A stretch of 64,000 nucleotides of DNA from Nocardioides gilvus (GTDB lineage Bacteria > Actinomycetota > Actinomycetes > Propionibacteriales > Nocardioidaceae): contig NZ_QHKY01000003.1 of the NCBI RefSeq assembly GCF_003194605.1, positions 248,001 to 312,000 on the forward strand. The letters are read 5' to 3'. Positions 6,793 through 48,196 of this stretch are shown piece after piece. The position numbers and the translations under genes are program-made. The number at the start of each line of letters is the position of its first letter. Position 1 is the stretch's first letter. The notes under the pieces were generated by a model. That model saw nothing but the letters and a program-made list of their open reading frames with translations, was not told the DNA's origin and ran no database searches.

Positions 6793-6798
6793 GACTCG

Positions 6799-6808: not shown

Positions 6809-6814
6809 GATCAG

Positions 6815-10139: not shown

Positions 10140-10169
10140 CGTCGGTCATTCTGCCCATTTTTCTTGCCG

Positions 10170-10175
10170 TAGGAT
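10170..10175 (+). promoter_or_regulatory. Leaderless -10 element for the FmdB-family gene
   Basis: TAGGAT is followed by 7 nt and the GTG at 10183. The AGGA within it could alternatively serve as a ribosome-binding site if transcription starts further upstream. Confidence 0.4.
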
Positions 10176-10182
10176 GTGCGAC

Positions 10183-10521: not shown

Positions 10522-10631
10522 TCCGCCCGAGACCTCCTCGGGGTCTCCACAGGTCGTCTGGTCGGGTGTGTCTCGCGGCTCCTGTGGATCGTCTCGCTCC
10601 GCCGGTGCCGTGACTGCCTACCGTCACGGTC

Positions 10632-11297: not shown

Positions 11298-11344
11298 CGT
11301 TTCAGTGCGGCCATCGCGGCCGCTCACGATCACCAGGAGAGAAC

Positions 11345-32544: not shown

Positions 32545-32997
32545 TCAGGGCAGGACGAGGGTGATCGTCTCCGCGACGCAGACCGGGCGCTCACTGCCCT
32601 CAGCCTCGACGGTCCACGACGTACGCACCTGGGTCCCTGAGGGCACCTTGGTGACGGAGGTGAACGTCGCGCTGCCGCGTACGCGGCTGCCGGTGCGCAG
32701 CGGCGCCGGAAAGCGGACCTTCTCCACGCCGTAGTTGAGCCGGGCCCCACCGGCGTCGATGCGGAAGAGTTGCGTAGCGAACCCCGGCAGCATCGACAGG
32801 GTCAGGAACCCGTGCACGATGGTGCCGCCGAACGACGACTCCGCTGCCCGCTCCGCGTCGACGTGGATCCACTGGTGGTCGCCGGTGAGATCAGCGAAGG
32901 TGTCGACGGCAGCCTGGTCGAGCTCGACCCAGTCGGTGGTGCCGAGCGTCTCGCCGACCGCGGCCTCGATCTCCTCAATGCTCGTCAGGACGCGCAT
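32545..32997 (-). CDS. MaoC-family (R)-specific enoyl-CoA hydratase
   Basis: 150 residues, a single hotdog domain. The hydratase 2 motif is FADLTGDHQWIHVDAERA (Asp and His of the catalytic pair) followed by SSFGGTIVHGFLTLSMLPG. RLNYGVEKVRFPAPLRTGS is the usual following strand pair. It hydrates trans-2-enoyl-CoA to the (R)-3-hydroxyacyl-CoA. It is the last gene of the operon; its ATG overlaps the thiolase stop (ATGA). Confidence 0.9.
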   Translation of the reverse strand: MRVLTSIEEIEAAVGETLGTTDWVELDQAAVDTFADLTGDHQWIHVDAERAAESSFGGTIVHGFLTLSMLPGFATQLFRIDAGGARLNYGVEKVRFPAPLRTGSRVRGSATFTSVTKVPSGTQVRTSWTVEAEGSERPVCVAETITLVLP

Positions 32998-34223
32998 CAG
33001 ACCACCCGCTCGAAGATCGCAGCGAGGCCCTGTCCGCCGCCGATGCACATGGTCTCCAGGCCGTAACGGGCCTCGCGTCGCTGCATCTCACGGGCCAGCG
33101 TGGCGAGCATGCGGCCACCGGTGGCGCCCACCGGGTGGCCGAGCGAGATGCCGGAGCCGTGCACGTTGGTCCGCTCGTGGTCGGCTGGCGTGAACTTCCA
33201 CTCACGCATCACGGCCAGGGCCTGGGCGGCGAACGCCTCGTTGAGTTCGATCAGGTCGATCTGGTCCAGGGTCAGACCGGCGCGGTCCAGGGCGGCCTGG
33301 GTGGCGGGCACGGGTCCGATGCCCATGATCTTCGGCTCGACGCCTGCGACACCCCAGCTGACGACCCGCACCAGCGGGGTGAGCCCCAGCCGTGCGGCGT
33401 TCTCGGGGGTGGTGACGATCGCCATCGACGCAGCGTCGTTCTGGCCGCTGGCGTTGCCTGCGGTCACCGTGGCCTCGGGGTCGGAGGAGCCGAGGATCGG
33501 CTTGAGCTTGGCCAGCGACTCCAGGGTGGTCCCCGGGCGGGGGTGCTCGTCCGTGGTGATGACCGTCGACTCGCCACGGCGTCCCGGCACGGTGACCGGC
33601 ACGATCTCCTCGGCCAGCACGCCCGACTCCTGGGCGGCCACGGCCCTGCGGTGCGACTCCACGGCGAGGGCGTCCTGCTCCTCGCGCCCGATGGAGTACT
33701 CGCGACGCAGGTTCTCGGCGGTCTCCAACATGCCGCCGGGGACCGGGTAGTGCTGACCCCCTGCGGTGGACCGGGCCCGGACCAGGCTGTCGTGCATCGT
33801 GACGCCGGTGCGGGCACCTCCCCACCGCATGTCCGTGGAGTAGAAGGACGCGTTGCTCATCGACTCGGTGCCGCCGGCGACGACCAGGTCCATGGCGCCG
33901 GTCTGCACCTGCATCGCCGCGTTGAGCACGGCCTGGAGCCCCGAACCGCAGCGGCGGTCGAGGTGCTGGCCGGGGACGGTGACCGGGAGGCCGGCGTCGA
34001 GCGCGACGACCCGACCGATCGCGGGGGCCTCGCTGTTGCCGTTGCAGTGTCCGAGGATGACGTCGTCGATCTCGGCGCCGTCGATCCCGGTGCGCTCCAG
34101 CAGGCCCTTGAGGGCGGCGACACCGAGGTCGACGGCGGTGAGGCTGGCGAACATGCCGCCGTAACGGCCGATCGGGGTCCGGACCGGCTCGCAGATGACT
34201 GCTTCGCGGAAGGTGGGGCTCAT
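32997..34223 (-). CDS. Acetyl-CoA C-acyltransferase (thiolase)
   Basis: 408 residues from the ATG at 34223 (GAAAGG about 8 nt upstream). Nucleophile Cys92 is in LDRRCGSGLQAV; His363 is in GHPVGATGGR and Cys393 in CIGGGQG, completing the thiolase triad. NASGQNDAAS and ELNEAFAAQALAV are further family blocks. It cleaves 3-oxoacyl-CoA with CoA, the last step of a beta-oxidation round. Gap of 13 nt to the upstream hydratase gene. Confidence 0.93.
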   Translation of the reverse strand: MSPTFREAVICEPVRTPIGRYGGMFASLTAVDLGVAALKGLLERTGIDGAEIDDVILGHCNGNSEAPAIGRVVALDAGLPVTVPGQHLDRRCGSGLQAVLNAAMQVQTGAMDLVVAGGTESMSNASFYSTDMRWGGARTGVTMHDSLVRARSTAGGQHYPVPGGMLETAENLRREYSIGREEQDALAVESHRRAVAAQESGVLAEEIVPVTVPGRRGESTVITTDEHPRPGTTLESLAKLKPILGSSDPEATVTAGNASGQNDAASMAIVTTPENAARLGLTPLVRVVSWGVAGVEPKIMGIGPVPATQAALDRAGLTLDQIDLIELNEAFAAQALAVMREWKFTPADHERTNVHGSGISLGHPVGATGGRMLATLAREMQRREARYGLETMCIGGGQGLAAIFERVV

Positions 34224-34236
34224 GGGAGTGCCTTTC

Positions 34237-35127
34237 TCAAAGGGGGTGTGCGTCGAGGGAGGTGCAGAGTGCCCCGTCGGGGCCGGACAGCGAGGCCGTC
34301 GTCCCGGACGGGTGCGCTGCGTGGGTGATGCGGGCCGGCTGGGCGCAGAAGAGCGGCGCCCGATTGCGGTGCTGGAGCTTGACCGGGCCGTCGAGTGCAC
34401 CGGCCCGGGCGAGGGTCTCGGCCAGCAGGAGGGTCATCAGCGGCCCGTGGACCACGAGCCCCGGGTAGCCCTCGACGCCGGTGGCGTAGGGCCAGTCGTA
34501 GTGGATCCGGTGGGCGTTGGCGGTGGCGGCGCTGAACCGCATCAGCACGGTCGGGTCGGTGGCCACGTCCCACCCGTCCCCGGCTGCCGTCTCTGCGGTC
34601 GTACGGCGCAGCGGGGGGCCGGTCGGCACCAGGTCGCCCGGCGGCTCCGGTGAGTCACTCGTACGGTCACCGGCCTCACGGTAGAGGATGTCCTGACGCT
34701 CGGTCAGGCACAGCCCGCCGTCCTCGCCGAACACCTGCGACTCCACCACCACGAGCACGAGCGGCCCACTGCGGCCGGTCTTGTCACTCACCGAGGTGAC
34801 CCGCGACTCGGTGCGGACCTGCTCGCCGACGCGGGGTGAGCGGAGCCAGGAGACCTCTCCCCCGGCGAACATCCGCCGCGGCAGCCCGACGGGCGGCAGG
34901 AAGGAGCCGGTACGGGGGTGCCCGTCGACCCCGAGCACCGAGGAGGGCGCCCAGCGGGGCAGCGCGACCCAGTGCCACAGGGGCGGCAGCGGCTCCCCGA
35001 CGCCGACCTCGTGGCCGTCGTCGAGGAGGGCGGCCAACGCCTGGACGGGTGCGGGCGCGACGACCTCGGTGCTGATCGACGGCGTCGGCTCCCACCCGTC
35101 GTACGCGGGGCCGTCGTAGCTGGTCAC
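34237..35127 (-). CDS. FAS1-like/HTD2-type dehydratase (mesaconyl-C4-CoA hydratase-like)
   Basis: 296 residues with two hotdog halves. The N-terminal half has [40 protein letters not shown] and [23 protein letters not shown], the block typical of the HTD2/mesaconyl-C4-CoA hydratase family. The second half has the hydratase-2-like [18 protein letters not shown] followed by [16 protein letters not shown] with the catalytic Asn/His. Members hydrate mesaconyl-C4-CoA or related branched enoyl-CoAs. The GTG start overlaps the SDR stop (GTGA). In combination with the isomerase-like gene of the same operon it points to a methyl-branched dicarboxylate. Confidence 0.8.
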
Positions 35128-35861
35128 ATGAACCGTCCGCCGGTGACCTCGGCGACCGTGCCACTCATGTAGGAGGAGAGGTCGGAGGCGTAGAAGAGGG
35201 CGACCGAGGCGATCTCCTCGGGCTCCCCGGGGCGGCCCATCGGGATCTCGGCCATCTTCTGGTCCCAGGCCTTCTGCGGCATCGCCTCGGTCATCGCGGA
35301 GCGGATCAGGCCGGGCTGGATCGCGTTGACCCGGACCCCGTGGTGGGCCATCTCCTTGGCGGCCGCCTTGGTCATGCCGACGATGCCGGCCTTGGCGGCG
35401 GAGTAGTTGGTCTGGCCGATCATGCCGACCTTGCCCGAGAGCGAGGAGATGTTGACGATCGAGCCGGACTTCTGCTCCCGCATCCGGGCTGCGGCGAGGC
35501 GGGTGCCGTTCCAGGTGCCCTTGAGGTGCACCTGGATGACGAGGTCGAAGTCCTCCTCGGTCATGGTGCGCATGGTGGCGTCGCGGGTGATGCCGGCGTT
35601 GTTGACGAAGACGTCGAGGGAGCCGAACGTCTCGACCGCGGCGTCGACCAGCGCCTGCACGTCGCCGGCATCGACGACGTTGCAGCGCACGCCCAGGGCA
35701 CGATCGGTCCCGAGCTCGGCAGCGGCCTTCTTGGCGGCCTCCTCGTCGAGGTCACCGATGACCACGCGAGCACCTTCCTCGACGTAACGACGGGCGATGG
35801 CCAGGCCGATGCCCTGGGCGCCTCCGGTGATGACGGCGGTGCGGTTCTCGAGCAGTGCCAT
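35124..35861 (-). CDS. SDR-family 3-hydroxyacyl-CoA dehydrogenase / 3-oxoacyl reductase (FabG-like)
   Basis: 245 residues. Cofactor loop TGGAQGIG at 12-19, Asp37 and Asp39 in [10 protein letters not shown] suggesting NAD(H) preference, NNAG at 87-90, catalytic Ser140, Tyr153 and Lys157 (YSAAK). [14 protein letters not shown] and the [10 protein letters not shown] end complete the fold. In this operon the reaction is likely oxidation of a 3-hydroxyacyl-CoA made by the neighbouring hydratase. It lies 3 nt behind the acyl-CoA dehydrogenase gene. Confidence 0.9.
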
Positions 35862-35864
35862 GGT

Positions 35865-37031
35865 TCAGACTCCTTCGTTGTTGCGGTCGCGGGCGACCAG
35901 CTGGGCGGCGATGACGTTGCGCTGCACCTCGTTGGTGCCCTCGCCGAGGATCATCAGGGGCGCGTCACGGAAGTAGCGCTCGACCTCGTACTCCTTGGAG
36001 AAGCCGTAGCCACCGTGCACGCGCATGGCGTCGAGGGCCACCTCCATGGCCGTCTCGGACGCGAAGAGCTTGGCCATCCCGGCCTCCATGTCGGCGCGGC
36101 GACCCGAGTCGAGGCGCTCGGCTGCGTCGGCGGTCATCAGGGCTGCTGCCCTGGTCTTGGTGGCCATGTCGGCCAGCAGGTTGCCGACGGACTGGTGCTT
36201 CCAGATCGGCTTGCCGAAGGACTCGCGCTGCTGGGCGTAGGTGACCGCGTCGTTGAGAGCGGCCTGGGCGACGCCGACGGCACGGGCAGCGACCTGGATG
36301 CGGCCGAGCTCGAGCCCGCGCATCATCTGCTGCCAGCCCTGGCCCACCTCGCCACCGAGGACGGAGGAGGCCGGCACGCGCATGTGGTCGAAGGTCAGCT
36401 CACAGGCCTCGACGCCTCGGTAGCCGAGCTTGGGGATCTTGCCGGAGACGCTGAAGCCCTCCCCCTCCGGCTCGACGAGCAGCACGCTCATGCCGGTGTG
36501 CGCAGGAGAGGCGTCCCGGTCGGTCTTGCAGAGCAGACCGATGAGGCCGGAGTGGGCCGCGTTGGAGATCCACGTCTTGGAGCCGTGGATCACGAGCTCG
36601 TCACCGTCCTGGACGGCGTACGTACGCATCGCCTGCAGGTCGCTGCCACCGCTGGGCTCGGTGAGGGCCATGGTGGCGCGGACGCTGCCGTCGGCCATCC
36701 GGGGCAGCCAGTGCGCCTGCTGCTCCGGGGTGCCGAAGGTGCGGATCAGATAGGTGATGACCGAGTGCCCACCGATCGCTCCGGCCAGGCTCATCCAGCC
36801 GCGGGCCAGCTCTTCGGTCACCCGGGCGAAGCAGGCGGTGGAGACGTCCACGCCGCCGTGCTCGGAGGGCACCAGGAGACCGAAGAAGCCCAGCTTCTTC
36901 ATCTCCTCGATGAACTCCTCGGGGTAGACGTCGTCAGCCTCGTACTTGCGCACGTTGGGGCGCACGCGGGCGTCCACGAACTCCGCCACCAGGCGGACCA
37001 TGTCCTGCTCGTCGGGGGTCAGGGTGCTCAT
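35865..37031 (-). CDS. Acyl-CoA dehydrogenase (operon copy)
   Basis: 388 residues with the three-domain fold. FAD contacts are in ATMALTEPSGGSDLQAMRT and SKTWISNAAHSGLIGLLCK. The segment LGYRGVEACELTFDHMRVPASSVLGG and the C-terminal QRESFGKPIWKHQSVGNLLADM are typical. The catalytic base is Glu364 in ILGEGTNEVQR, where short- and medium-chain enzymes have it. It introduces the alpha-beta double bond with electron transfer to ETF. Its start overlaps the stop of the CaiB-like gene by one base. Confidence 0.92.
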   Translation of the reverse strand: MSTLTPDEQDMVRLVAEFVDARVRPNVRKYEADDVYPEEFIEEMKKLGFFGLLVPSEHGGVDVSTACFARVTEELARGWMSLAGAIGGHSVITYLIRTFGTPEQQAHWLPRMADGSVRATMALTEPSGGSDLQAMRTYAVQDGDELVIHGSKTWISNAAHSGLIGLLCKTDRDASPAHTGMSVLLVEPEGEGFSVSGKIPKLGYRGVEACELTFDHMRVPASSVLGGEVGQGWQQMMRGLELGRIQVAARAVGVAQAALNDAVTYAQQRESFGKPIWKHQSVGNLLADMATKTRAAALMTADAAERLDSGRRADMEAGMAKLFASETAMEVALDAMRVHGGYGFSKEYEVERYFRDAPLMILGEGTNEVQRNVIAAQLVARDRNNEGV

Positions 37032-38377
37032 CAGTTCTCCTCGTGGTGGGACGGGGTGGGGGTTCCGTCCGTGGGGTGTTCGGGGGTGTTCGTACGGGGG
37101 GTGGCGCGGACCACGCCGTCGCGGACGAGCTCGGCGATCCGATCCGGTCCCAGACCCAGGTGGTGGGCGAGCACGTCGGTGCTGTGCTCCCCGACCATCG
37201 GTGCCCGGGCCTGCCTGGTCGCGGAGTCCGGCGCCGCCGCCAACCTGATCGGGGAGCCGGGGGCCAGGTAGGCACCGACACCGGGCTGGTCGACGGTGGA
37301 GAAGAGGGGGTTGTTGCGCAGCTCGGCGGAGTCGTTGGAGGCCAGATCGGCGAAGGTACGGTACGGCGACCAGAGGACGCGGGTGCTGGCCAGCGCCTCG
37401 GAGACCACGTCCCAGGTCCGGGTGGAGACCCAGGCCTCCAGCAACCCGAAGAGTGCGGAGCGGTGTCGGTAGCGCTGCCCCTCGTCGGTGAAGTCGGCGC
37501 CCAGGGCCTGCTCGAGGCCGGCGACCACCTGGGTCAGGCCGGTGACGGCGAGCAGGTCGCTCCACTGTCGCGGGGTGAGCGCGACGAACATGAACCGGAT
37601 GCCGTCGGAGGTGATCAGGTCCGTGCCGAAGGTGCCGTGCACGTCGTTGCCCTCCCGGGAGCGCCGACCACCCAGTTGGGCCTCGGCCAGGTAGCCGAGG
37701 TTGCCGGCGATCGCGAGGGCGACGTCCTCGAGCGCGACCCGGACCTGGCTGCCCTTCCCTGTACGCGCCCGGTGACGCTCCGCGGCCAGCAGCCCGGTCG
37801 ACAGGTAGAGGCCGGCGGCGACGTCGAAGGCGGGAAGCACGTGGTTGACGGGTGCGGCCCCACTGGCGGGCCCGGTGATCAGCGGGAAGCCGGTCCCCGC
37901 CTGCACGGTGTAGTCGACGGCGGTGCTGCCGTCGTGGCGCCCGGTCAGGGTCACGTGGACGATGTCCTCGCGGCGCGCCCGCAGCGCCTCGTAGGTGAGC
38001 TCGGGCCAGCGTTCGGTGTTGGTGACCAGGATCCCGTCACCCTCGACGACGAGGTCGGCGACGAGCCGTCGACCGGCAGCATCGGCCAGGTCGATCTCGA
38101 GTGCCTGCTTGCCCCGGTTGAGCCCGCTCCAGTAGAGGCTGGTGCCCGACGGGGCCAACGGCCAACGACCCCGATCCGGTCCACCCCCCAGCGGCTCGAC
38201 CCGGATCACCTCGGCCCCGAGTTGGGCCAGGGTCAGCCCGGCCAGCGGAGTGGCGACGAAGCTGGAGAGCTCGACCACCTGTAGGCCGGCGAGCGGGCCG
38301 CCCGACCCGTCGAGGCCCTCGACACCGGGCGCTGGCTCGGCGCTCTCGGGCCGGGGGGTCTGTCCTGGGGTGCTCAT
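37031..38377 (-). CDS. CaiB/BaiF CoA-transferase, 2-methylfumaryl-CoA isomerase (Mct)-like
   Basis: 448 residues: a Pro/Ser-rich start, then the class III CoA-transferase fold. Asp155 in STAVDYTVQAG takes the place of the catalytic Asp that forms the anhydride. The region GRHDGSTAVDYTVQAGTGFP, GAAPVNHVLPAFDVAAGLY and SREGNDVHGTFGTDL resembles Mct of the 3-hydroxypropionate cycle as I remember it. Mct moves CoA between the two carboxyls of mesaconate. The tail from about 430 is Thr/Pro-rich. A 71-nt gap separates it from the MFS gene. Confidence 0.75.
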   Translation of the reverse strand: MSTPGQTPRPESAEPAPGVEGLDGSGGPLAGLQVVELSSFVATPLAGLTLAQLGAEVIRVEPLGGGPDRGRWPLAPSGTSLYWSGLNRGKQALEIDLADAAGRRLVADLVVEGDGILVTNTERWPELTYEALRARREDIVHVTLTGRHDGSTAVDYTVQAGTGFPLITGPASGAAPVNHVLPAFDVAAGLYLSTGLLAAERHRARTGKGSQVRVALEDVALAIAGNLGYLAEAQLGGRRSREGNDVHGTFGTDLITSDGIRFMFVALTPRQWSDLLAVTGLTQVVAGLEQALGADFTDEGQRYRHRSALFGLLEAWVSTRTWDVVSEALASTRVLWSPYRTFADLASNDSAELRNNPLFSTVDQPGVGAYLAPGSPIRLAAAPDSATRQARAPMVGEHSTDVLAHHLGLGPDRIAELVRDGVVRATPRTNTPEHPTDGTPTPSHHEEN

Positions 38378-38448
38378 TGCTGCTCCTCGATTCGGGCGGT
38401 GGGGATGCGTACGGGTGGGGGACGGCGTACGTGGGTGGAGCCGGAGGC

Positions 38449-39858
38449 TCATGTGCTCACCGCCGCGGCCTGCACCAGTTGCTGGTGCTGGGGCTCTGCG
38501 GGAGGACCGGCCAGCACGAGCGCCAGGGTGACGGCGGCCAGCACGGCCGGCCCGGCGAAGACCAGGAACAGCGAGCCGGTGGGGTAGGTCAGCGCGACCC
38601 AGGCGTAGCCGACGGCGAGCCCGGAGAAGCGCACCATGTTGTGGATGCCGAGTGCGGTGCCGTTGGTGGCCGCCGGCGAGCGCATCACGCCCAGCGCCGC
38701 GACCGACTGCACCGACCCGATGGCGCACCCACTCAGCGACAGCACCCCGAAGGCGACCCCCAGCGGCAGCAACGAGCCGTCGAGCGTGAGGGCCAGCGAG
38801 AGCAGCAACGGGGTGCAGACCAGGACGGCGAGCCCCAGGTGGAGCACCCGGCGCGGAGTGATCCGCTCCCCCAGTCGCGAGGAGAGCGGCGCGAAGAGGG
38901 CCATGGACGCAGCCAACGCGACGGTGATGGCCCCGATCCGGCCGGGCGAGAGCCCGAACTCGCGTCCCAGCTCCAGCGGGGTGGCGACGATGAAGATGCC
39001 GAGGATGGCCATCGAGGTACCGGCCGAGGCGGTGCTGCGGTAGTAGCGACGCTCGGCGAAGAGACTCAGGGGGACCAGCGCACGGCTGCTGCGCCGGGCG
39101 AGCACGAGGTGGAGCAGCACGCCGAGGATGCCGAGCACGACCAGCACCACGGTGAGCCGCATCGGGCTGCCCTGCCCCACGGCCGTCATCGCGCCGACGA
39201 TCCCGCCGGCGCCCAGGACCAGGGTGAGCATCCCGGAGACGTGCATCGGGGGTCGACCGGCCGGCACCGAGGGGACGCTGCGCCACAGCAGCAGGGCGAG
39301 CAGCCCGGAGAGCGCCGCGTGGGTCACGAAGACCCCACGCCAGCCCACCAGGTCGGCCACGACCCCGCCGAGCGGCGGCCCGAGCGCCTGACCGACCCCG
39401 ATGGCGGATGCCCAGGTGGCCATCACCCGGGCGCGGTTCTGCGCCCAGAAGACCGCCAGGGTCTGCTGGACGGCGGGCGGGATCGCCGAGCAGGCGACCC
39501 CCTGCAGCGCACGCATGCCGACCAGGGTGAGCAGGTTGGGGCTGAGCGCGGCCCCGACTCCGGCCAGCACCATGAGCCCGAGCGAGCCGATGAGGAAACG
39601 TCGCGGTCCCAGCCGTTCGCAGAGCCACCCCGCCATCGGCGCGAAGACCACCATGGCCAGCGTGAACGCCGCCACCGCGAAGACGACCTCGCGCGAGCCC
39701 ACGCCCAGCCCGGAAGCGATCCGGTTGATCGGTGAGGTGATGATCGTGCTCGACAACGTGCCCAACGTAGTGCTGGCGAGCAGCACGACGTAGGCGGTCC
39801 GGCTCGGCTGGGCCGGTGTCGTTGGCGGCGTGAGGGCGCCGGTCGGGGTCGAGGTCAT
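38449..39858 (-). CDS. MFS transporter of the catabolic operon
   Basis: 469 residues from the ATG at 39858, overlapping the stop of the CoA-transferase gene (ATGA). About 14 TM helices. Motif A-like GWLCERLGPRRFLIGS lies between TM2 and TM3, and PPAVQQTLAVFWAQNRARVM and GVGQALGPPLGGVVADLVGW are DHA2-like. With a TRAP importer in the same operon, this protein could export a product or drug-like intermediate or provide a second import route; the sequence does not decide. Confidence 0.85.
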   Translation of the reverse strand: MTSTPTGALTPPTTPAQPSRTAYVVLLASTTLGTLSSTIITSPINRIASGLGVGSREVVFAVAAFTLAMVVFAPMAGWLCERLGPRRFLIGSLGLMVLAGVGAALSPNLLTLVGMRALQGVACSAIPPAVQQTLAVFWAQNRARVMATWASAIGVGQALGPPLGGVVADLVGWRGVFVTHAALSGLLALLLWRSVPSVPAGRPPMHVSGMLTLVLGAGGIVGAMTAVGQGSPMRLTVVLVVLGILGVLLHLVLARRSSRALVPLSLFAERRYYRSTASAGTSMAILGIFIVATPLELGREFGLSPGRIGAITVALAASMALFAPLSSRLGERITPRRVLHLGLAVLVCTPLLLSLALTLDGSLLPLGVAFGVLSLSGCAIGSVQSVAALGVMRSPAATNGTALGIHNMVRFSGLAVGYAWVALTYPTGSLFLVFAGPAVLAAVTLALVLAGPPAEPQHQQLVQAAAVST

Positions 39859-40655
39859 CGCAGGTAGAGGCGGACGGTGTCGATCTCCTCGCGCAGCAGA
39901 CGTACGTCCTCCTCGGTGGGCCAGGGGGTCTCGACGACGTCGGCGGCCACGGCCAGGTCCCACCCGGTCGCTTCGCGGACCTGGTCGATCTGCACCCCGG
40001 GGTGCACCTGGGCCAGCTGGAGCTCGCCGAAACGGTCCGGGCGGCGCAGCACTGCCAACGGGGTGATCACCGTGGAGACGCCGTGGCCGGGCGGGACCGC
40101 CCGCGGGTCGAGGTCGCGGGCCCGTACGGGGCTCGGCGAGGTGCAGAAGTCGAGGGCAGCGGGGAAGGCGCCGGGGTCGTGGCGCCGCAGCACGGTGATG
40201 CACTCCCGCGCGTTGGGCACGATGTCGGCCGCGCCACCCGAGCCGGGAAGGCGCACCGTGGGGCTCTCCCAGTCGCCGATGAAACTCGTGTTGAGGCTCC
40301 CCCACCGGTCGACCTGGGCCGCGCCGAGGAAGCCGACGTCCACGTGGCCGCCCTGGAGGACGTAGCCGAAGAGCGCCTGCATGTTGACGACCGCCTCCGC
40401 GCCGGAGACCAGCACCGAGTCGGCGATCCCTTCGGCCATCCCCTCGGGGTGCGCACCGCACACACCGGACTCGTAGACCAGCTGGATGTCGGGGGCCACG
40501 GTCCGCATGGCCAGGTCGACCGCGAGCGTGGGCAGGCCCACGCCGGCGAAGACCCGGTGCTTGCCCGCGAGCTCGCGGGCGGCGACGGTTGCGAGGAACT
40601 CCGTGCTGGAGATGGTGATCCCAGCGGGTCCGAGCTCGTTCGTGCGCGTGATCAC
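39855..40655 (-). CDS. CoA-transferase beta subunit (glutaconate/3-oxoacid type, GctB-like)
   Basis: 266 residues from a GTG that overlaps the alpha-subunit stop (GTGA). It starts SSTEFLATVAARELAGKHRVFAGVGLPTLA. Glu62 in LVYESGVCGAHPEG sits at the catalytic position of family I CoA-transferases, so a covalent acyl-glutamyl intermediate is possible. GGHVDVGFLGAAQVDRWGSLNTSF and GSGGAADIVPNA match the family. IpdB-type hydrolases are relatives but that family does not use this Glu. Together with the alpha subunit it would activate the imported acid. Confidence 0.83.
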   Translation of the reverse strand: MITRTNELGPAGITISSTEFLATVAARELAGKHRVFAGVGLPTLAVDLAMRTVAPDIQLVYESGVCGAHPEGMAEGIADSVLVSGAEAVVNMQALFGYVLQGGHVDVGFLGAAQVDRWGSLNTSFIGDWESPTVRLPGSGGAADIVPNARECITVLRRHDPGAFPAALDFCTSPSPVRARDLDPRAVPPGHGVSTVITPLAVLRRPDRFGELQLAQVHPGVQIDQVREATGWDLAVAADVVETPWPTEEDVRLLREEIDTVRLYLR

Positions 40656-41575
40656 GATGATCTCCGTCCGTAGTCAACTTGTCCCGAGAGCCGCTCGCCG
40701 ACGGTGTTGTCCTGCCAGCGCTGCTCCCCCAGGTGCTCGAGGTAGGCGGCTCGGTCGGGCAGGTCGTGGACCCACTCCTGGAGCCACGACCGGAGCAGTT
40801 GCGGGTCCTTGCTGATCGCGGTCCAGTCCCGGTAGAAGACGTTGTCGCGGTCGTAGTGGCCCTGCGCGTACGAGGGGTGCGCGCCGCCGGGGACGTGCAC
40901 CACGGCGTCCACCGCGTGGGCCGGGACCAGGGTGCGGTTCGGGTCGGACCGTACGACCTCGTCGTCGACGATCTCCTCCACGGTGACGATCACCTTCTTG
41001 GCCGCGTAGGCGACCTCCTGGATCGCCCCGACGATCCCCCACACCTGCACGTTGCCGAACCGGTCCGCCCGTTGCGCGTGCACCACGGTGACGTCGGGCG
41101 CGAGCGCCGGGACGACGTGGATGTCCGGTCCGCCGTAGGGGTCCTCGACCTTGCGGATCCTGGGGTTGAGGGTCGGCAGGTCGCTGCCCGCGTACGACTT
41201 CAGCGGGAAGAAGGGCAACCCGGCGGCGGCGGCCTGGTAGCGGCCGTACATCCCGTAGTGGCTGTACTCCTCCACCTCGAGCGGCTCCGGGTCGGAGCGT
41301 TCGATGCGGCGCCGCACCTCGTGGAGTGACCCCGCTGACCCGCTCGCGAAGAACGAGGCGATGAGCTTGCGTACGCACCCTGCCGCGATCATCTGGTCGG
41401 CGATCAGGTCCGGGGTCATCCGGCACAGGGTCAGGTCCTTGCGACCCTGCCGGATGATCTCGTGACCAGCCGCGAAGGGGATCAGGTGACCGAAGCCCTC
41501 CAGGGCCACGGTCATCCCGTCCTCGACGTGCTCGGCGATCGCCTCGGAGAGTCCCCTGACCTTCACTTCGCTCAC
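40652..41575 (-). CDS. CoA-transferase alpha subunit (glutaconate/3-oxoacid type, GctA-like)
   Basis: 307 residues, GTG start overlapping the TRAP permease stop. It shows DGMTVALEGFGHLIPFAAGHEIIR, then FFASGSAGSLHEVRRRIE, GLPFFPLKSYAGSDL, and DVTVVHAQRADRFGNVQVWG, which is the signature region of GctA/IpdA-like alpha subunits. RTLVPAHAVDAVVHVPGGAHPSYAQGHYDRD is also typical. Acts with the following subunit as a heteromer in the cytoplasm. Donor and acceptor acids are unknown. Confidence 0.83.
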   Translation of the reverse strand: MSEVKVRGLSEAIAEHVEDGMTVALEGFGHLIPFAAGHEIIRQGRKDLTLCRMTPDLIADQMIAAGCVRKLIASFFASGSAGSLHEVRRRIERSDPEPLEVEEYSHYGMYGRYQAAAAGLPFFPLKSYAGSDLPTLNPRIRKVEDPYGGPDIHVVPALAPDVTVVHAQRADRFGNVQVWGIVGAIQEVAYAAKKVIVTVEEIVDDEVVRSDPNRTLVPAHAVDAVVHVPGGAHPSYAQGHYDRDNVFYRDWTAISKDPQLLRSWLQEWVHDLPDRAAYLEHLGEQRWQDNTVGERLSGQVDYGRRSS

Positions 41576-43680
41576 GGGGAAGTCACTCCCGCCACGCGAG
41601 TGTGGCCGGCGTCGTCGCCGAGAGCGCGTCGCGTGGTGGCGCCGGGAGCGCCGGGAGCGCTGGGGGCGCTGGGAGCGACCTCGTCCGGGCTCACCGCCGT
41701 GGCCGAGGTGTCGCCCCGAGGCGTGCCCTTCGTCCCGTCCTTGGCCACGCCGCCGTCACGCGGAGGCAGGATCCGGGTGACCACGCCGAGGGCCACGGCG
41801 ACCCCCAGACCGATGAGGCTGCTGAGCAGCTCGGGCGCCAGGATCAGCGCACCGGCCGGCACCCCGATGATCCGGGTGACCGGGTGCAGGTGCCGCTCCA
41901 GGCCGATGGCGTAGCCCTCGAAGGCACAGGCCATGACGAAGACACCGACCAAGGCAAAGGCCAGGGTGATCACGATGTCGCTCACGGCGCCCTGGGCCAC
42001 CAGGGCCGGGTTGGCCGCGAAGCAGAACGGGATGACGTACTTGACCATGCCCAGACGCATCGCCGTGAGGCTGGTCTTCATGGGTCTGGTCCCGGCGATC
42101 CCGGCCGCCGCGAACGAGGCCAGCGCCACCGGCGGCGTGATGTAGGAGACCGTCGCCCAGTAGATGACGAACAGGTGCGCCGCGATCGGGTCGATCCCGA
42201 GGGTGATCAGGGCGGGCGCCATCACGATGGCGAGCAGCACGTAGACGGCCGAGACCGTCATGCCCATGCCCAGGACGAACGAGGTGATCGCACCCGCGAT
42301 CAGGATCAGGACGACGCTGCCGCCGACCGCGCTGACCAGCTCACGAGCCAGGGAGAGCGAGACACCGGTCATCGAGAGACCACCGATGATCAGGCCGACA
42401 CCGGCGATGATGCCGAGGATCTCGGCGATCGTGCGACCGGACTTGAAGATCACGTCGGCCAGGCCACGGACCGTGAGACGGTCCGTACGCCGGATCATCG
42501 TGTAGACGAGCAGGGCGGCGGCGATGATGAACGGGGCCTGCGCCTCGCGGCGGTAGACGACCAGCAGGAAGGTCAGGGCGGCCAGCGCCATGACGTACGG
42601 CCAACCGCGCAGCAGGGTCCCCAGGAACTTCGGCAGCTCGGAGCGCTTGAGTCCGCGCAACCCGCGGCGCGCCGAGTAGGCGTCGACCTGGGTGAAGATG
42701 CCGAGGTAGTAGAGCAGCGCCGGGATGGAGGCCGCGATCGCGATCTCGCTGTAGGGCACTCCCACGAAGGAGACCATCAGGAACGCGGCGGTGCCCATGA
42801 TCGGCGGGGTGATGGAGCCACCGGACGAGGCGGTCGCCTCGACACCGGCTGCGTACTCACCCGAGAAACCGCTGCGCTTCATCGCGGGGATGGTCAGCGG
42901 GCCGGTGGTGAGCACGTTGGAGACGGCGCTGCCGCTCATCATGCCCATGCTGGCCGAGCTGACGACTGCGACCTTGGCCGAGCCGCCGCGACGGGTCCCC
43001 AGCAGCGACTGCGCGAGGTCGTGGAAGAACGCTCCGCCACCGACCGACTGCAGCACCACGCCGAAGAGCAGGAAGCCGACCAGGATGCCGGCGGCGGTCT
43101 GCAACGGCAGGCCCAGGATGGAGTCCACGCCCATCGCGTGCATGCGCGCCGCACCCTGGAGGTCGAACTCGATGCCGGTGAGGAAGTCGATCGGCATCTG
43201 CGAGGCGAAGAGCGGGTAGACCGAGAAGACGCCCGCGATGATCGTGACGACCAGGCCTGCCGTGCGGCGCAGGGCCTCCAGGACCAGGCCCCACAGCACG
43301 AACGAGGCGACGAGTGCGGTGGTCGGACCGCCGTAGTCCCAGCCCTGGTTGAGGATGTTCTCGGCGTTGAGGCCGAACCAGAGCGGAACGGCCAGCGCGG
43401 CCGCGGCGAGGACGACGTCGTGCCAGGGCACCGAGTGGCGTTGGGCTGCCCGCATCGGGAAGGTCAGGAAGACGATCGGCAGGAAGGAGGCGAGGACGTA
43501 GTAGAGGAACGTACTGCGCAGCATGCCGCCGCCGAAGGGGTTCCAGTAGAAGACCTGGCTGATGGTGATGGCGACACCGATGAGGGTCAGGGTGATCACC
43601 ACCCAGCGCCAGACTCCCCGACAGCGGGCGACGGAGCCGTGCTCCTCCTCCGCCTCGATGAGGACGTTGGTCTCGGTCAT
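41572..43680 (-). CDS. TRAP transporter fused permease (4TM+12TM)
   Basis: 702 residues from the ATG at 43680. A DctQ-like part (about 25-130) is fused to a DctM-like part with about 12 helices. Key loops are SSASMGMMSGSAVSNVLTTG and EATASSGGSITPPIMGTAAF in the first half and FVLGMGMTVSAVYVLLAIVMAP with ATVSYITPPVALASFAAAGIAG in the second. This is the form that works with TAXI-type binding proteins. The last 60 residues are hydrophilic with Ala/Pro/Gly repeats. Substrates are carboxylates driven by an ion gradient. One-base overlap with the binding-protein gene. Confidence 0.93.
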   Translation of the reverse strand: MTETNVLIEAEEEHGSVARCRGVWRWVVITLTLIGVAITISQVFYWNPFGGGMLRSTFLYYVLASFLPIVFLTFPMRAAQRHSVPWHDVVLAAAALAVPLWFGLNAENILNQGWDYGGPTTALVASFVLWGLVLEALRRTAGLVVTIIAGVFSVYPLFASQMPIDFLTGIEFDLQGAARMHAMGVDSILGLPLQTAAGILVGFLLFGVVLQSVGGGAFFHDLAQSLLGTRRGGSAKVAVVSSASMGMMSGSAVSNVLTTGPLTIPAMKRSGFSGEYAAGVEATASSGGSITPPIMGTAAFLMVSFVGVPYSEIAIAASIPALLYYLGIFTQVDAYSARRGLRGLKRSELPKFLGTLLRGWPYVMALAALTFLLVVYRREAQAPFIIAAALLVYTMIRRTDRLTVRGLADVIFKSGRTIAEILGIIAGVGLIIGGLSMTGVSLSLARELVSAVGGSVVLILIAGAITSFVLGMGMTVSAVYVLLAIVMAPALITLGIDPIAAHLFVIYWATVSYITPPVALASFAAAGIAGTRPMKTSLTAMRLGMVKYVIPFCFAANPALVAQGAVSDIVITLAFALVGVFVMACAFEGYAIGLERHLHPVTRIIGVPAGALILAPELLSSLIGLGVAVALGVVTRILPPRDGGVAKDGTKGTPRGDTSATAVSPDEVAPSAPSAPGAPGATTRRALGDDAGHTRVAGVTSP

Positions 43681-44798
43681 CAGTTCTCCAGGTTCTTGTT
43701 CTTCCAGGCGACCCAGGCGTCGTGGACGTTGTCGTCGGCGCCTTCGGTCTCGACGAACTCGTCCCACGCGTCGTCGAGCTGGTCGGCCCGCTCGACGAGG
43801 GCCTCCTGCTGCGCGGCTGCCTCGTCACTCCAGGCGTCGTTCGCCTCGAGGTAGGCGATCAGTCCTTCGTGGAACGGCACTTCCCTGGGACCGGCCTGCA
43901 CCTGGTCGAGGTTCCAGGCGGTCGTGGTGGCGGTGGCGTCCTTGTAGGAGTCGTAGTTGTCGTTGATCGCGGCGACGATGGCCTCGATCTCGTCCGCGTC
44001 CGCGTCCTCGTAGGCGACGACGGGCACCGTGTACATCATCCCCTTGGCGCTCTCGCCGTCCTCGAGGCCGGGTGCGTCGGTGAACTCACCGATCTCGACG
44101 GAGGGAGCGATCTCCTCGACGGCTGCGACCTTCTCCGCGCTGGTGTCGTCCATGCTCAGCCAACGGACCGGGAAGGCGGACTCGAGCTCGTAGAGGGAGG
44201 CGCCGTAGACCTGCTGGAAGAGCACGTCGATCTTGCCGTTCTGCAACGCACCGGGCTGGTCGCTGTAACCGACCTCGACCACCTTGACGTCGTCCCAGGT
44301 GAGCCCGCCGTAGGCGAGGAACGCCTCGAGCTTGTTGTTGACCGAGGGGTTGGCGGTGATCCGCGGGAACTTCTTGCCCTTGAGGTCCTCGAAGTTCGCG
44401 ATGCCGGAGTCGTCCTTGACCATGAGCCCGTGCGGAGCGACGGGAGCCCACACGACCCGCAGGTCCTGGGGACCCCAGTCCTTGGTGGCGAAGTCGTAGT
44501 TGCCCTCGAAGCCGAAGATGTACTCGTCACCGGTGCGGGCCAGTTGTGCCTGCTCCTCGCGCAACGGAGTGAGACGGCCGACCGCGGTGTCGGAGGTGAT
44601 GACGCGGACGTTCGTGCCCTCGTTGGAGGTGATCGCGTCAGCGACGGCGGCGACGTCGGCGTAGGTCGAGGTGCCGGTCCCGTAGGTGGACCAGACGATC
44701 TGATCGGGCATTCCCTCGGTGGTCTCCGCGCCTCCGCAGGCAGCGAGGGTGAGTGCGGCGGCCGTGGCCAGCGCGGTCCCGATGACAGGCTTCCTCAT
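43680..44798 (-). CDS. TAXI-family TRAP solute-binding lipoprotein
   Basis: 372 residues from the ATG at 44798, chosen because AAGGGA is 6 nt upstream; ATGs 15 and 18 nt earlier lack that. Signal peptide with lipobox LTLAAC, Cys21 as lipidation site. The mature part starts GTGTSTYADVAAVADAI, the TAXI pattern (G-T-G-x-S), and has NPSVNNKLEAFLAYGGLTWDDVKVV and GALQNGKIDVLFQQVYGAS. It captures the substrate outside the membrane for the fused permease. First gene of the eleven-gene operon; the 194-bp region to the divergent thioesterase gene holds the regulatory motifs. Confidence 0.92.
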   Translation of the reverse strand: MRKPVIGTALATAAALTLAACGGAETTEGMPDQIVWSTYGTGTSTYADVAAVADAITSNEGTNVRVITSDTAVGRLTPLREEQAQLARTGDEYIFGFEGNYDFATKDWGPQDLRVVWAPVAPHGLMVKDDSGIANFEDLKGKKFPRITANPSVNNKLEAFLAYGGLTWDDVKVVEVGYSDQPGALQNGKIDVLFQQVYGASLYELESAFPVRWLSMDDTSAEKVAAVEEIAPSVEIGEFTDAPGLEDGESAKGMMYTVPVVAYEDADADEIEAIVAAINDNYDSYKDATATTTAWNLDQVQAGPREVPFHEGLIAYLEANDAWSDEAAAQQEALVERADQLDDAWDEFVETEGADDNVHDAWVAWKNKNLEN

Positions 44799-44875
44799 GG
44801 TTGTTCCCTTCATCATGTGGACCCTGGTCGAGCCCTGTGTCTCAGATCACTGTCCATGACGAACCGCCCACAATG

Positions 44876-44905
44876 CCAATACTTTGTAGGGCTCCCATTG
44901 ATGTC
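44876..44905. promoter_or_regulatory. Putative LysR regulatory motifs, TRAP/thioesterase intergenic region
   Basis: CCAATACT (44876-44883) and ATTGATGTC (44897-44905) both recur in the lysR/caiB intergenic region, the first one in inverted orientation. They lie between the divergent starts at 44798 and 44993, a place from which both could be controlled. Confidence 0.45.
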
Positions 44906-44992
44906 GCACAGGTATCAACCAATATCTACTGACCGGTTGTCGTGTCTCAATCGGGTTATCCTCGTCACTCTCGCTACGGAAGGAATCCCCCC

Positions 44993-45859
44993 GTGAAGAC
45001 CGCCCCCAGTGCCGCCGTCACGCTCGACGAACTGCTCAGCCTTCTCGACCTCACCGAGACCGGCGACTTCGTCGTGGGCCGCGCCCAGCAGCACCCCGAG
45101 GACCGGGTCTTCGGCGGCCTGCTCCTCGCCCAGGCCGTCGTTGCCGCCGGCCGCTCGGTGCCGAGCAACCACCGCCCGTTCACCCTCCAGGCCGACTTCG
45201 TCGCCGGCGTGCCCACCGACGAGCCGTTGCGCTGGCGGGTCGAGCACGTCTCCGACGCCCCGAGCCTCACCACCCGGCGCACCACGCTGGTCGCCCCGGA
45301 CGGTTCCGAGCGGTTCACCGCGCTGTCACGCTGGGGCACGATCCGCGAGGACCTGGTCGACCACCGGCCCGCCGAACCACGCCGGGTCCCGGGACCGGAC
45401 GAACTCCCCGACCTGATCGAACGCTTTGGCGACGACGAGCGGATCCCCCTGTGGTGGCGCGCCGAGCGGCCGGTCCACTTCCGCCACACCGAGACCCCGC
45501 CGTACGTCACCACGACGCCCGCGCAGGACCACCAGTCCGCGTGGCTCCGCACCACGGGTCCGCTCCCTGAGGACCCGGTGATCCACGCTGCGGTCCTCGC
45601 CTACGTGAGCGACATGAGCATCCTCGAGGGAGCCTTCCGGGCGTTGGGCTCCCAGCGCCACGCCCCGGGCAGCCGGATCCTCAGCCTCACCCACACGCTG
45701 ACCTGGCACGCCCACCCGGACCTGGGCCAGTGGCACCAGTTCGACAGCGACGTCCGCGCGGTCGCGCACGGGCGCACCCTTGGCGAGGGGCGGATCCACG
45801 ACCACCACGGCGAGCACCTGGTCACCGCCAGCCAGGTCGGGCTGGTCCGCCTCGCCTGA
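44993..45859 (+). CDS. Acyl-CoA thioesterase II (TesB-like)
   Basis: 288 residues from the GTG at 44993 with GGAAGGA 8 nt upstream; a longer upstream frame lacks a ribosome-binding site. Two hotdog domains: QQHPEDRVFGGLLLAQAVVAAG and HRPFTLQADFVAGVPTDEPL in the first, and AVLAYVSDMSILEGAFRALG with the active-site Asp plus SLTHTLTWHAH and a GRTLGEGRIHDHHGEHLVT end in the second. It hydrolyses acyl-CoA to acid and CoA, perhaps to relieve CoA trapping by the adjoining pathway. Divergent from the TRAP operon, convergent with lysR. Confidence 0.88.
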   Translation: MKTAPSAAVTLDELLSLLDLTETGDFVVGRAQQHPEDRVFGGLLLAQAVVAAGRSVPSNHRPFTLQADFVAGVPTDEPLRWRVEHVSDAPSLTTRRTTLVAPDGSERFTALSRWGTIREDLVDHRPAEPRRVPGPDELPDLIERFGDDERIPLWWRAERPVHFRHTETPPYVTTTPAQDHQSAWLRTTGPLPEDPVIHAAVLAYVSDMSILEGAFRALGSQRHAPGSRILSLTHTLTWHAHPDLGQWHQFDSDVRAVAHGRTLGEGRIHDHHGEHLVTASQVGLVRLA

Positions 45860-45877
45860 TTCCTCAGCATCGGCGGG

Positions 45878-46792
45878 TCAGAACCCGACCGGCGCACCCT
45901 CGGGCGTGGGCAGGGCCTCCTCCGAGGCGATCAGCACCTCACGCAGCGCGGGATTGTTGTCGCCCTCGCGCCACGCCAACCGGGCGTAGACCGGGTCGCG
46001 GCCCTCCACCAGGGGCACAACGGCAATCCCGTCGGCCTGCATGTTGGCCACCGCGGTGTCCACGGTGAAGGTGACCCCCACCCCGGCAGCGACGAGCGCG
46101 ATCGCAGTCCACGAGTCGGGGGCGCTCTGCACGATGTCCGGGGCGAAGCCTGCTTCGTGGCAGGAGCGCACGAAGGCGTCCCGCACGCTGGAGCCCGGGT
46201 CTGCCGGGAGCGCGACGAAGGCCTCCTCACGACAGTCGGCCATGCTGACCTCCTCGCGGCCGGCCAGCCGATGTCCGGTCGGCACGGCGAGCACGTAGCG
46301 CTCCGCGGCCACCACCCGGGAGACGATGCCCACGGGCTGCACCGAGAACCGGACGAACGCCAGGTCCATGGCGCCGTCCACCACCTCCCGCAGCCCCTCG
46401 TAGGCGTAGGTGACCGACTGCAGGCTGAGCTCGATCCCCGGGTGCCGCTGACGCACGATCCTGGCCAACTGGCTGATCAGCACGTGCGAGGAGGGTCCGG
46501 CGAAGCCGAGTCTGACCCGTCCTGTCTCCCCCACCCCGGCCGCGCGCACGGCCGACCTGGCAACCCGCACTCCCTCGAGTACGTCCGTGGCAGGCCGGAC
46601 CAGGGCCTGGCCGGCGGTGGTCAGTCGGACGCTGCGGGTCGTCCGCTCGAAGAGCTGGGCCCCCAGCTCCCGTTCCAACTGCTTGATGGTCCGGCTCAGG
46701 GGCGGCTGGGCCATGTGCATCCGTTCGGCCGCGCGACCGAAGTGCAGCTCCTCGGCAACGGCGAGGAAGGCCTTGAGGTGGTGGAACTCCAT
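45878..46792 (-). CDS. LysR-family transcriptional regulator
   Basis: 304 residues. The N-terminal winged helix is FHHLKAFLAVAEELHFGRAAERMHMAQPPLSRTIKQLE, followed by LFERTTRSVRLTTAGQAL. The effector domain begins near 90 and has GAMDLAFVRF and AAGVGVTFTVDTAVANM. It is divergent from the second CaiB operon with a 94-bp gap carrying an ATTGG-N7-CCAAT palindrome. AGGAAGGGGG forms a good ribosome-binding site. Likely controls both catabolic operons in response to a carboxylate or CoA ester. Confidence 0.92.
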   Translation of the reverse strand: MEFHHLKAFLAVAEELHFGRAAERMHMAQPPLSRTIKQLERELGAQLFERTTRSVRLTTAGQALVRPATDVLEGVRVARSAVRAAGVGETGRVRLGFAGPSSHVLISQLARIVRQRHPGIELSLQSVTYAYEGLREVVDGAMDLAFVRFSVQPVGIVSRVVAAERYVLAVPTGHRLAGREEVSMADCREEAFVALPADPGSSVRDAFVRSCHEAGFAPDIVQSAPDSWTAIALVAAGVGVTFTVDTAVANMQADGIAVVPLVEGRDPVYARLAWREGDNNPALREVLIASEEALPTPEGAPVGF

Positions 46793-46809
46793 ACCCCCTT
46801 CCTACACCA

Positions 46810-46865
46810 ATTGATGTCCGAATGAACACAATGAGCGCCTGATTGAGTATTGGACATGGCCCAAT
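46810..46865. promoter_or_regulatory. Putative LysR operator region, lysR/caiB intergenic
   Basis: Contains ATTGATGTC (46810-46818), AGTATTGG (46846-46853) and the palindrome ATTGG-N7-CCAAT (46849-46865) with T-N11-A spacing, as expected for a LysR site. The first two words are shared with the TRAP/thioesterase intergenic region. Confidence 0.5.
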
Positions 46866-46886
46866 GGGACACAGCATGGTGGAGAC

Positions 46887-48110
46887 ATGGCTCACACCGC
46901 TGACCCCGCGCTCCCCCTCGCCGGCATCACCGTCGTCGCCCTCGAGCAGGCCGTGGCGGCGCCGCTGGCCACCCGTCACCTCGCTGACCTGGGCGCTCGC
47001 GTGATCAAGATCGAGCGCGTCGGCGAGGGCGACTTCGCCCGCAACTACGACCACGCCGTACGCGGCATCGCCTCGCACTTCGTGTGGCTCAACCGCGGCA
47101 AGGAGTCGGTCGCCCTCGACCTCAAGGACCCTGCAGGCCTGTCGGCCGCCCAGCGACTCATCGCCGGCGCCGACGTCTTCGTCCAGAACTCCGCTCCGGG
47201 CGCTGCCGCGCGTCTCGGTCTCGACGGGGAACAGCTGCGTGCCGACAACCCCGGCCTGGTCGTCGTCAACATCTCCGGCTACGGCACCGACGGCCCGCGC
47301 CGTGACCGCAAGGCCTACGACATGCTCATCCAGGCCGAGGCCGGACTCATCTCGGTGACCGGCACCCCGGACACCGCGACCAAGACCGGGGTCCCGAGCG
47401 CCGACATCGCCGCCGGCCTCTACACCGCCCAGTCGGTGCTCGCCGCGCTGCTGCGCCGCGCCCGTACGGGTGAGGGCGCCGTCGTCGACGTCTCCATGTT
47501 CGACGCGACCGCCGAATGGCTCGGACACCCGATGTACATGCAGATGTACTCCGGCCACCAGATCCCGCGGATGGGTCTGAGCCACGCCTCGATCGCGCCG
47601 TACGACGCGTTCCCCACCAGCGACGGCGAGATCCTGATCGGCGTCCAGAACGACCGCGGATGGGCCGCGCTGGCCGAGGTCCTCGGCCGCCCGGACCTCG
47701 TCACCCACCCCGACCTGGCCACCAACATGCTCCGGGTGGCCAACCGCGCCCTGTGCGACCGGGTGGTCGGCGAGCTCACGGCGGGCTTCACCACCGAGGA
47801 GCTCGACGCCCGGCTGGCCACGGCCGGTGTCCCCGCGGCCCAGATCAACGACATGCAGGGGCTCATCGACCACCCGCAGCTCTCCGCACGTGACCGGTGG
47901 CGCGAGATCGACAGCCCGTCGGGCCCCCTGCGCGCCCTGCTGCCCCCGACCACGTTCCGCGACGTCGAGCTCCCGATGGGGGCCATCCCCGGCCTGGGCG
48001 AGCACACGGCTGCCGTGCTGAGCGAGTTCGGGCTGGGCGCCGACGAGATCGACCGGCTCCGTGAATCCGGGGCCATCGGGCTCGCCGAGGCCGCCGAGCC
48101 CGTCGGCTGA
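46887..48110 (+). CDS. CaiB/BaiF family CoA-transferase (second copy)
   Basis: 407 residues, usual length for class III CoA-transferases. It begins LAGITVVALEQAVAAPLATR and LNRGKESVALDLKDPAGLS. Asp145 in KAYDMLIQAEAGLISVTG is the catalytic Asp. GVPSADIAAGLYTAQSVLAAL and the late AGVPAAQINDM, GEHTAAVLSEFGL follow. Transfers CoA between acyl groups; donor could be succinyl-CoA. Start preceded by GGTGGAGA. First gene of a plus-strand operon with a dehydrogenase and a crotonase. Confidence 0.9.
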   Translation: MAHTADPALPLAGITVVALEQAVAAPLATRHLADLGARVIKIERVGEGDFARNYDHAVRGIASHFVWLNRGKESVALDLKDPAGLSAAQRLIAGADVFVQNSAPGAAARLGLDGEQLRADNPGLVVVNISGYGTDGPRRDRKAYDMLIQAEAGLISVTGTPDTATKTGVPSADIAAGLYTAQSVLAALLRRARTGEGAVVDVSMFDATAEWLGHPMYMQMYSGHQIPRMGLSHASIAPYDAFPTSDGEILIGVQNDRGWAALAEVLGRPDLVTHPDLATNMLRVANRALCDRVVGELTAGFTTEELDARLATAGVPAAQINDMQGLIDHPQLSARDRWREIDSPSGPLRALLPPTTFRDVELPMGAIPGLGEHTAAVLSEFGLGADEIDRLRESGAIGLAEAAEPVG

Positions 48111-48196
48111 GCCACCTCCACCACCTCCACCACCGCGCACATCCCGCAGCACGACCCGCCCGGGCAGCACCGCCCAGAGAGCACGAGGAGTCCGTC

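Follow-up and report, generated by a model that had tools for sequence, protein, structure and literature searches.

What kind of substrate would require an operon to place an importer, a CoA-transferase and the enzymes of beta-oxidation beside a relative of Mct, an enzyme that moves CoA within a molecule and is known from CO2 fixation? The question is raised by 64,000 nucleotides (nt) of Nocardioides gilvus DNA (contig NZ_QHKY01000003.1, positions 248,001 to 312,000; here, the window), in which a first-pass annotation described eleven minus-strand genes at 32545-44798 as an operon for the uptake, CoA activation, intramolecular CoA shift and beta-oxidation of a branched or unsaturated dicarboxylate. 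All eleven genes were found at these coordinates and this description is still the best reading, by the grouping with Mct, the residues kept and the match of the HTD2-type hydratase, but they are not the full set: they form the main arm of a cluster of 16 genes that extends past 44798, to 50184. On evenly balanced judgment, the whole region (32545-50184) may be a regulon, probably controlled by a LysR-type protein, for breaking down an aliphatic dicarboxylate that is beta-branched (3-substituted).

In order of transcription, the main arm encodes a TAXI lipoprotein, a fused TRAP permease, CoA-transferase subunits of the GctA and GctB types, a DHA2-like major facilitator superfamily (MFS) protein, the Mct-like CaiB protein, an acyl-CoA dehydrogenase (ACAD1), a short-chain dehydrogenase/reductase (SDR), a FAS1_DH/HTD2-type hydratase, a thiolase and a MaoC-type hydratase. 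The DNA itself shows which genes are present, their conserved order, the families they belong to, the promoter motifs common to both arms and the Mct-type residues.

The Mct-like CoA-transferase and the HTD2-type hydratase

The family III CoA-transferase encoded at 37031-38377 (minus strand) is the putative enzyme of the intramolecular CoA shift. It scores 368 bits against the Mct profile TIGR04253, the next family reaching 119, and 359 and 347 bits against the Mct structures 7xkg and 8apq in the Protein Data Bank (PDB), where other family III enzymes score 105 or less. In Mct, Asp165 is catalytic, and Arg47 and Tyr136 bind the second carboxylate (PMC9813914, PMC9196870). Alignment places all three, together with Arg314, in the window protein; of these four residues, Asp165 alone is present in four inter-molecular comparators.

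In the tree, for which those comparators served as a small and long-branched outgroup, the whole Mct-like group is split from them at 100/100, and the window protein stands next to bona fide Mct in a separate clade. The name Mct-like given in the first-pass annotation, which proposed a tree as a check, holds in part: the protein falls on the Mct side and keeps the carboxylate-binding residues, but it reaches only 368 of the 725 bits of the curated cut-off, and the residues of the adenine "cork" are missing. It is a relative of Mct within the Mct superclade and no certified Mct, and it probably acts on a dicarboxylyl-CoA.

The FAS1_DH/HTD2-type protein (34237-35127, minus strand), earlier described as similar to HTD2 and mesaconyl-C4-CoA hydratase, bears out that description, with itaconyl-CoA hydratase as its closest match. 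By homology it is a putative itaconyl-CoA/mesaconyl-C4-CoA hydratase (160 bits to PDB 8khg/8huc, with the HRIHYDWPY region kept).

A proposed pathway for a beta-branched dicarboxylate

We infer every reaction of the following scheme, as well as its substrate. The TAXI-TRAP system would import the diacid, a task that an MHS-type symporter or a Liv-type ABC transporter would take over in other species, and the glutaconate CoA-transferase (Gct)-type enzyme, or a second CaiB protein (CaiB2), would form its mono-CoA ester. Module A, consisting of a second acyl-CoA dehydrogenase (ACAD2), MaoC or an enoyl-CoA hydratase/isomerase (ECH), the SDR and the thiolase, could then run a single round of beta-oxidation and release acetyl-CoA, leaving a 2-alkylsuccinyl-CoA with its CoA next to the branch, where beta-oxidation would stall.

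The Mct-like enzyme would have a reason to be there, since beta-oxidation of a 3-methyl diacid from the unhindered end stops at methylsuccinyl-C1-CoA. It would start module B by shifting the CoA onto the other carboxylate, after which ACAD1 would yield an enoyl ester of the mesaconyl-C4-CoA type, the HTD2-type hydratase a tertiary-alcohol ester of the citramalyl-CoA type, and a RipC/Ccl-type lyase acetyl-CoA and a 2-oxo acid, which for a methyl branch would be pyruvate. In this strain, whose operon has no lyase, one encoded elsewhere in the genome may step in, or the mesaconyl-type CoA ester may drain into the ethylmalonyl-CoA pathway.

A substrate such as 3-methyladipate or a longer homologue would fit, the 3-methyladipate type best; 3-methyladipate is known as an end product of the omega-oxidation of phytanic acid (PMC8781152). 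Our proposal of an undescribed aerobic pathway for 3-alkyl-dicarboxylates in Actinomycetota, in which a round of beta-oxidation and an Mct-like intramolecular shift are followed by the finishing of the alkylsuccinyl-CoA via a citramalyl-CoA-type lyase, is a tentative one.

Conservation across genomes

The search for the same gene set in other Nocardioidaceae, suggested in the first-pass annotation, was productive: a CaiB protein search found close relatives in 15 of the 346 genomes of the family, and homologous clusters are present in roughly twelve Nocardioides as well as in members of other families. Because gene order is kept across many genomes, a chance grouping of the operon genes is excluded. 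Sixteen loci were counted (the window, G176, G416, Root140, Soil797, G525, G477, G577, G461, G578, G498, G448, G178, G238, and Intrasporangium L056 and L123); since these were picked for having the module, the counts describe composition and are no independent test.

At all 16 loci the Mct-like gene comes with the SDR and thiolase, and the HTD2 gene is absent only from Soil797. G178 belongs to another family and has nearly the entire set in one block, TAXI, TRAP and LysR included. Importers differ between loci: the window, G176, G416, G178 and G448 have TAXI and/or TRAP, Root140, Soil797, G525, G477, G577, G461 and G578 have an MHS-type symporter, and G498 has a Liv-type ABC transporter, with acyl-CoA ligases replacing the CoA-transferase. 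Uptake of an acid fits this pattern, because unrelated importers surround a constant enzyme set.

Several other contexts of the Mct-like gene were seen. In Mycobacterium-type genomes (L008, L011, L013, L014, L074, L092 and L093), it stands beside an SDR, a thiolase (these ~73-83% identical to those of the window) and a dehydrogenase, with no HTD2 or lyase gene in the annotated neighbourhoods of these loci. In a second mycobacterial context (L043, L045, L048, L050 and L081), TesB-like and MaoC genes come after the Mct-like gene. A contig labelled as a Bifidobacterium breve metagenome-assembled genome (L036) is probably mis-binned; its Mct-like gene is of the mycobacterial type and almost identical to those of uncultured actinobacteria. 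In Intrasporangium L123 (11005-11927), the HTD2 homologue is split between two open reading frames on the other strand and may be a pseudogene or the result of a sequence error.

The lyase of the relatives

A CitE-type lyase gene (HpcH/HpaI-type, ~270-300 aa) is present in 13 of the 16 loci, in most cases placed between the Mct-like and ACAD1 genes; its product is nearest RipC_Ccl (153 bits, model cut-off 375). The first-pass claim that CitE-type lyases are absent is true of the window operon but not of the cluster at large, and its contrast between a missing lyase and a thiolase found instead does not survive. As both enzymes occur together in these 13 loci, they probably act in one scheme, with the lyase lost or displaced here. 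A lyase-free pathway was considered as the defining feature and was dropped once CitE had been seen in the operons of relatives.

No (S)-citramalyl-CoA lyase gene was found in the cluster of the window, in Soil797 or in Intrasporangium L056. Loss in the window lineage is the simple reading, since both of the nearest relatives (G176 and G416) have the lyase, and there is no remnant, as the stop of the Mct-like gene overlaps the ACAD1 start. We also considered decay of the window HTD2 gene and saw no sign of it, with a dN/dS (ratio of nonsynonymous to synonymous change) of ~0.27, like that of the relatives; nonsynonymous change (dN) in the Mct-like gene is about twice that of relatives on the window lineage (both being pairwise estimates without a significance test). 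A simple explanation of the CitE loss by the ethylmalonyl-CoA pathway was weakened, the same marker enzyme being found in the three relatives examined, two of which have CitE.

Module B can be seen apart from the rest of the cluster. The Mct-like/CitE/HTD2 trio stands by itself in Intrasporangium L122, and in G092 and G331 the Mct-like and CitE-type lyase genes recur with an Rv0216/mesaconyl-CoA-hydratase-like gene. Genes of these three kinds adjoin one another at L096:9294-12345 and L146:6914-9215, where the last may encode an alternative hydratase for this module.

The genome of N. gilvus has another lyase at G000:C4:99503-100315, ~45% identical and not part of the clade that the operon lyases form. 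The cluster around it (L120 = G000:C4:89000-108999, 1248-11322) encodes MaoC-type proteins, a luciferase-like oxidoreductase, CaiB, MmgE/PrpD, a thiolase with a ChsH2-type OB-fold partner, an acyl-CoA dehydrogenase and this RipC/Ccl-like lyase.

The divergent arm and shared promoter motifs

Five genes lie beyond the TAXI gene, four of them on the plus strand. A TesB-like acyl-CoA thioesterase (44942-45859, with a start at 44993 also possible) scores 107 bits against TIGR00189, under the cut-off, and is a conserved operon neighbour. The LysR-type regulator (45878-46792, minus strand) is a candidate regulator of both arms. It is followed by CaiB2 (46887-48110), a family III CoA-transferase of the inter-molecular type (NF052585 243 bits vs TIGR04253 74), ACAD2 (48197-49348) and ECH (49345-50184). 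The LysR, ACAD2 and ECH genes were assigned by profile match and are conserved.

The 9-mer ATTGATGTC has two plus-strand matches in the window, both in the intergenic regions that head the two arms: one between TAXI and TesB (44897-44905), kept in G176 and G416, and a second copy between LysR and CaiB2 (46810-46818). By chance, 0.10 matches would be expected and two were reached in 1 of 100 shuffles of the window, although these counts are descriptive only, because ATTGATGTC and CCAATAC/GTATTGG were picked after inspecting the intergenic regions. CCAATAC/GTATTGG has the same two-arm distribution but is weaker. Ahead of the TAXI arm (44876-44882), the GTATTGG form is on the minus strand, and ahead of CaiB2 (46847-46853), where most relatives have the form GGTATTGGAC, it is on the plus strand; in relatives, too, GTATTGG precedes both arms. 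The longer motif ATTGATGTC-N4-10-GGTAT occurs once in the genome, ahead of the TAXI arm. The 16-gene region is probably one co-regulated cluster, and we infer that the LysR protein controls both of its arms.

Weighing the alternatives

There are several points that weigh against a pathway for branched diacids and that should be kept in mind. Leu/Ile43 and the cork residues Arg75, Phe101 and Arg104 of Mct are replaced by P43, A75, T101 and W104 in the Mct-like protein, so that strict intramolecular transfer is not assured, and both this protein and the operon-type CitE fall under their curated profile cut-offs. Module B is not always complete, since CitE is missing from the window and L056 and both CitE and HTD2 from Soil797, and the lyase on G000:C4 is only distantly similar and sits in another catabolic cluster. 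The MFS protein is efflux-like, and nothing in the sequence singles out the substrate.

If the cluster served only C5 acids (itaconate, mesaconate or methylsuccinate), like its pseudomonad counterpart, the work would fall to the CoA-transferase, Mct-like shift, ACAD1, HTD2-type hydratase and lyase, and the thiolase, SDR and MaoC would be general helpers. Such a role would suit a hydratase nearest itaconyl-CoA hydratase and a lyase nearest RipC_Ccl, and it has precedents in the five-gene pseudomonad cluster that does such chemistry (PMC12290011) and in the uptake of itaconate by a TRAP transporter in Pseudomonas aeruginosa (PMC12599236). It is nonetheless quite improbable: C5 acids require no thiolase, yet no members of the loci are more constant than the SDR and thiolase, which in mycobacteria stand beside an Mct-like gene without HTD2 or CitE, and the pseudomonad transferase yields the C4 ester directly, therefore making a CoA shift unnecessary there. 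Alternatively, the operon might be an ordinary one for fatty-acid or short-chain beta-oxidation with a normal inter-molecular CaiB transferase, as the missing cork residues and the generic beta-oxidation classes of the remaining enzymes could suggest. We regard this as very doubtful, given the four Mct residues kept, the 100/100 split in the tree, the presence of two more CoA-transferases in the cluster and the association with a citramalyl-type lyase.

A diacid derived from a ring (alicyclic, terpenoid, or methyl-aromatic via 4-methyl-3-oxoadipate) might instead be the substrate, with the same module B finishing the branched succinyl-CoA that the thiolase step yields. The naphthalene thn operon follows the same logic (PMC11659651) and the Liv-type transporter and acyl-CoA ligases of G498 would agree with it, but no ring-cleaving or ring-hydroxylating gene was found in the flanks inspected, and we consider this origin unlikely. 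A similarly unlikely course is that the cluster is rerouted or decaying in this strain, where, without CitE, beta-oxidation would proceed to methylsuccinyl- or mesaconyl-C1-CoA and the ethylmalonyl-CoA pathway would finish. CitE is indeed missing here and present in both nearest relatives, Soil797 has lost CitE and HTD2, the genome has its own crotonyl-CoA carboxylase/reductase (601 bits) and dN of the Mct-like gene is raised; against this, the HTD2 and Mct-like genes are intact and under purifying selection, and relatives that share the ethylmalonyl-CoA marker have retained CitE.

Annotation of the remaining genes

The genes of the main arm are tightly packed, in line with the overlaps reported in the first-pass annotation: seven of the ten junctions are overlaps of 1 or 4 nt, and the other three are gaps of 3, 13 and 71 nt. 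In G176 (L084:18052-18711) and G416 (L138, near 8622), a divergent GntR/FCD regulator lies between the Mct-like and MFS genes, at the place of the 71-nt gap. Pfam and NCBIfam profiles uphold the family classes of all eleven genes, which are on the minus strand.

Both parts of the importer named in the first-pass annotation score above their cut-offs and belong to a TAXI-TRAP transporter: the solute-binding lipoprotein (43680-44798, 372 aa; TIGR02122 184.8 bits, cut-off 84) and the fused permease (41572-43680, 702 aa; TIGR02123 595.7 bits, cut-off 321). The alpha subunit of the CoA-transferase (40652-41575) is of the GctA type, with 154 bits to PDB 1poi_A and ~80 to 6co6-type chains, and the beta subunit (39855-40655) is of the GctB type by alignment and by 98 bits to 1poi_B. 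Its ESG aligns with that of GctB, so that the catalytic glutamate is kept, as is the GSGGA motif. An IpdAB/AibAB-type function for this family I enzyme was judged unlikely, since Gct scores higher and the nucleophile is kept. The MFS protein (38449-39858) is kept in most clusters; a role as importer is only a guess, because its nearest relatives are the DHA2/EmrB efflux group.

ACAD1 (35865-37031) is FadE3-like (PDB 4iv6, 550 bits), and the SDR (35124-35861) resembles a FabG-like 3-hydroxyacyl-CoA dehydrogenase (NF004198 378 bits, above cut-off). The thiolase (32997-34223; NF004853 700 bits, cut-off 551) and the MaoC-type hydratase (32545-32997; PF01575 86.7 bits) complete the arm. Outside the cluster, the window encodes a long protein with FAD-linked oxidase domains (55040-58360, minus strand) that bears a partial likeness to the D-2-hydroxyglutarate dehydrogenase YdiJ (353 bits, cut-off 1350).

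Comparison with known systems

Were the proposed pathway true, Mct-type transfer would be part of the everyday breakdown of branched diacids in soil and a general answer to branch-blocked beta-oxidation, of which the Mct of the 3-hydroxypropionate bicycle is one specialised member. It would also explain a gene set found in many Nocardioides. What was a vague guess at a branched dicarboxylate now comes with named intermediates and with a genus some of whose members can be cultured, and the loci with and without the lyase offer a natural comparison of pathway endings.

The enzyme classes are known and their arrangement is undescribed in the open-access papers searched; literature on 3-methyladipate, 4-methyl-3-oxoadipate and 2-methylfumaryl-CoA isomerase clusters yielded no description of it. 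The dca adipate operon of Acinetobacter baylyi likewise combines a CoA-transferase, dehydrogenase, hydratase, 3-hydroxyacyl-CoA dehydrogenase, thiolase and transporter, but its substrate is unbranched and it is without Mct-like, HTD2-like and lyase genes.

The Mct enzymes of Chloroflexus and Roseiflexus (8apq, 7xkg) share a superclade and Asp165, Arg47, Tyr136 and Arg314 with the window protein, which differs from them in its separate clade, half the curated score, the replacement of Leu43, Arg75, Phe101 and Arg104, and its place outside any 3-hydroxypropionate bicycle; profile scans of the cluster genes found no other gene of that bicycle.

In pseudomonads, the ict-ich-ccl-mcd-mmgE cluster for itaconate and methylsuccinate converts methylsuccinyl-C4-CoA through mesaconyl-C4-CoA and citramalyl-CoA to acetyl-CoA and pyruvate, methylsuccinyl-C1-CoA being termed a dead end (PMC12290011). 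An Ich-related hydratase, a dehydrogenase and, in relatives only, a RipC/Ccl-type lyase are common to both, as is a linked TRAP transporter in the itaconate cluster of P. aeruginosa (PMC12599236). The window cluster differs in its Gct-type CoA-transferase, TAXI TRAP, extra beta-oxidation module and Mct-like shift, and it has neither a lyase nor an MmgE/PrpD methylsuccinate isomerase gene; one MmgE/PrpD gene lies in the G000:C4 cluster.

A parallel in logic is the thn operon (ThnP/ThnO) of anaerobic naphthalene degradation (PMC11659651). ThnP belongs to the family I (Cat1) transferases and works anaerobically on an alicyclic substrate; it shifts CoA within the molecule after the thiolase step, which lets the other arm be oxidised.

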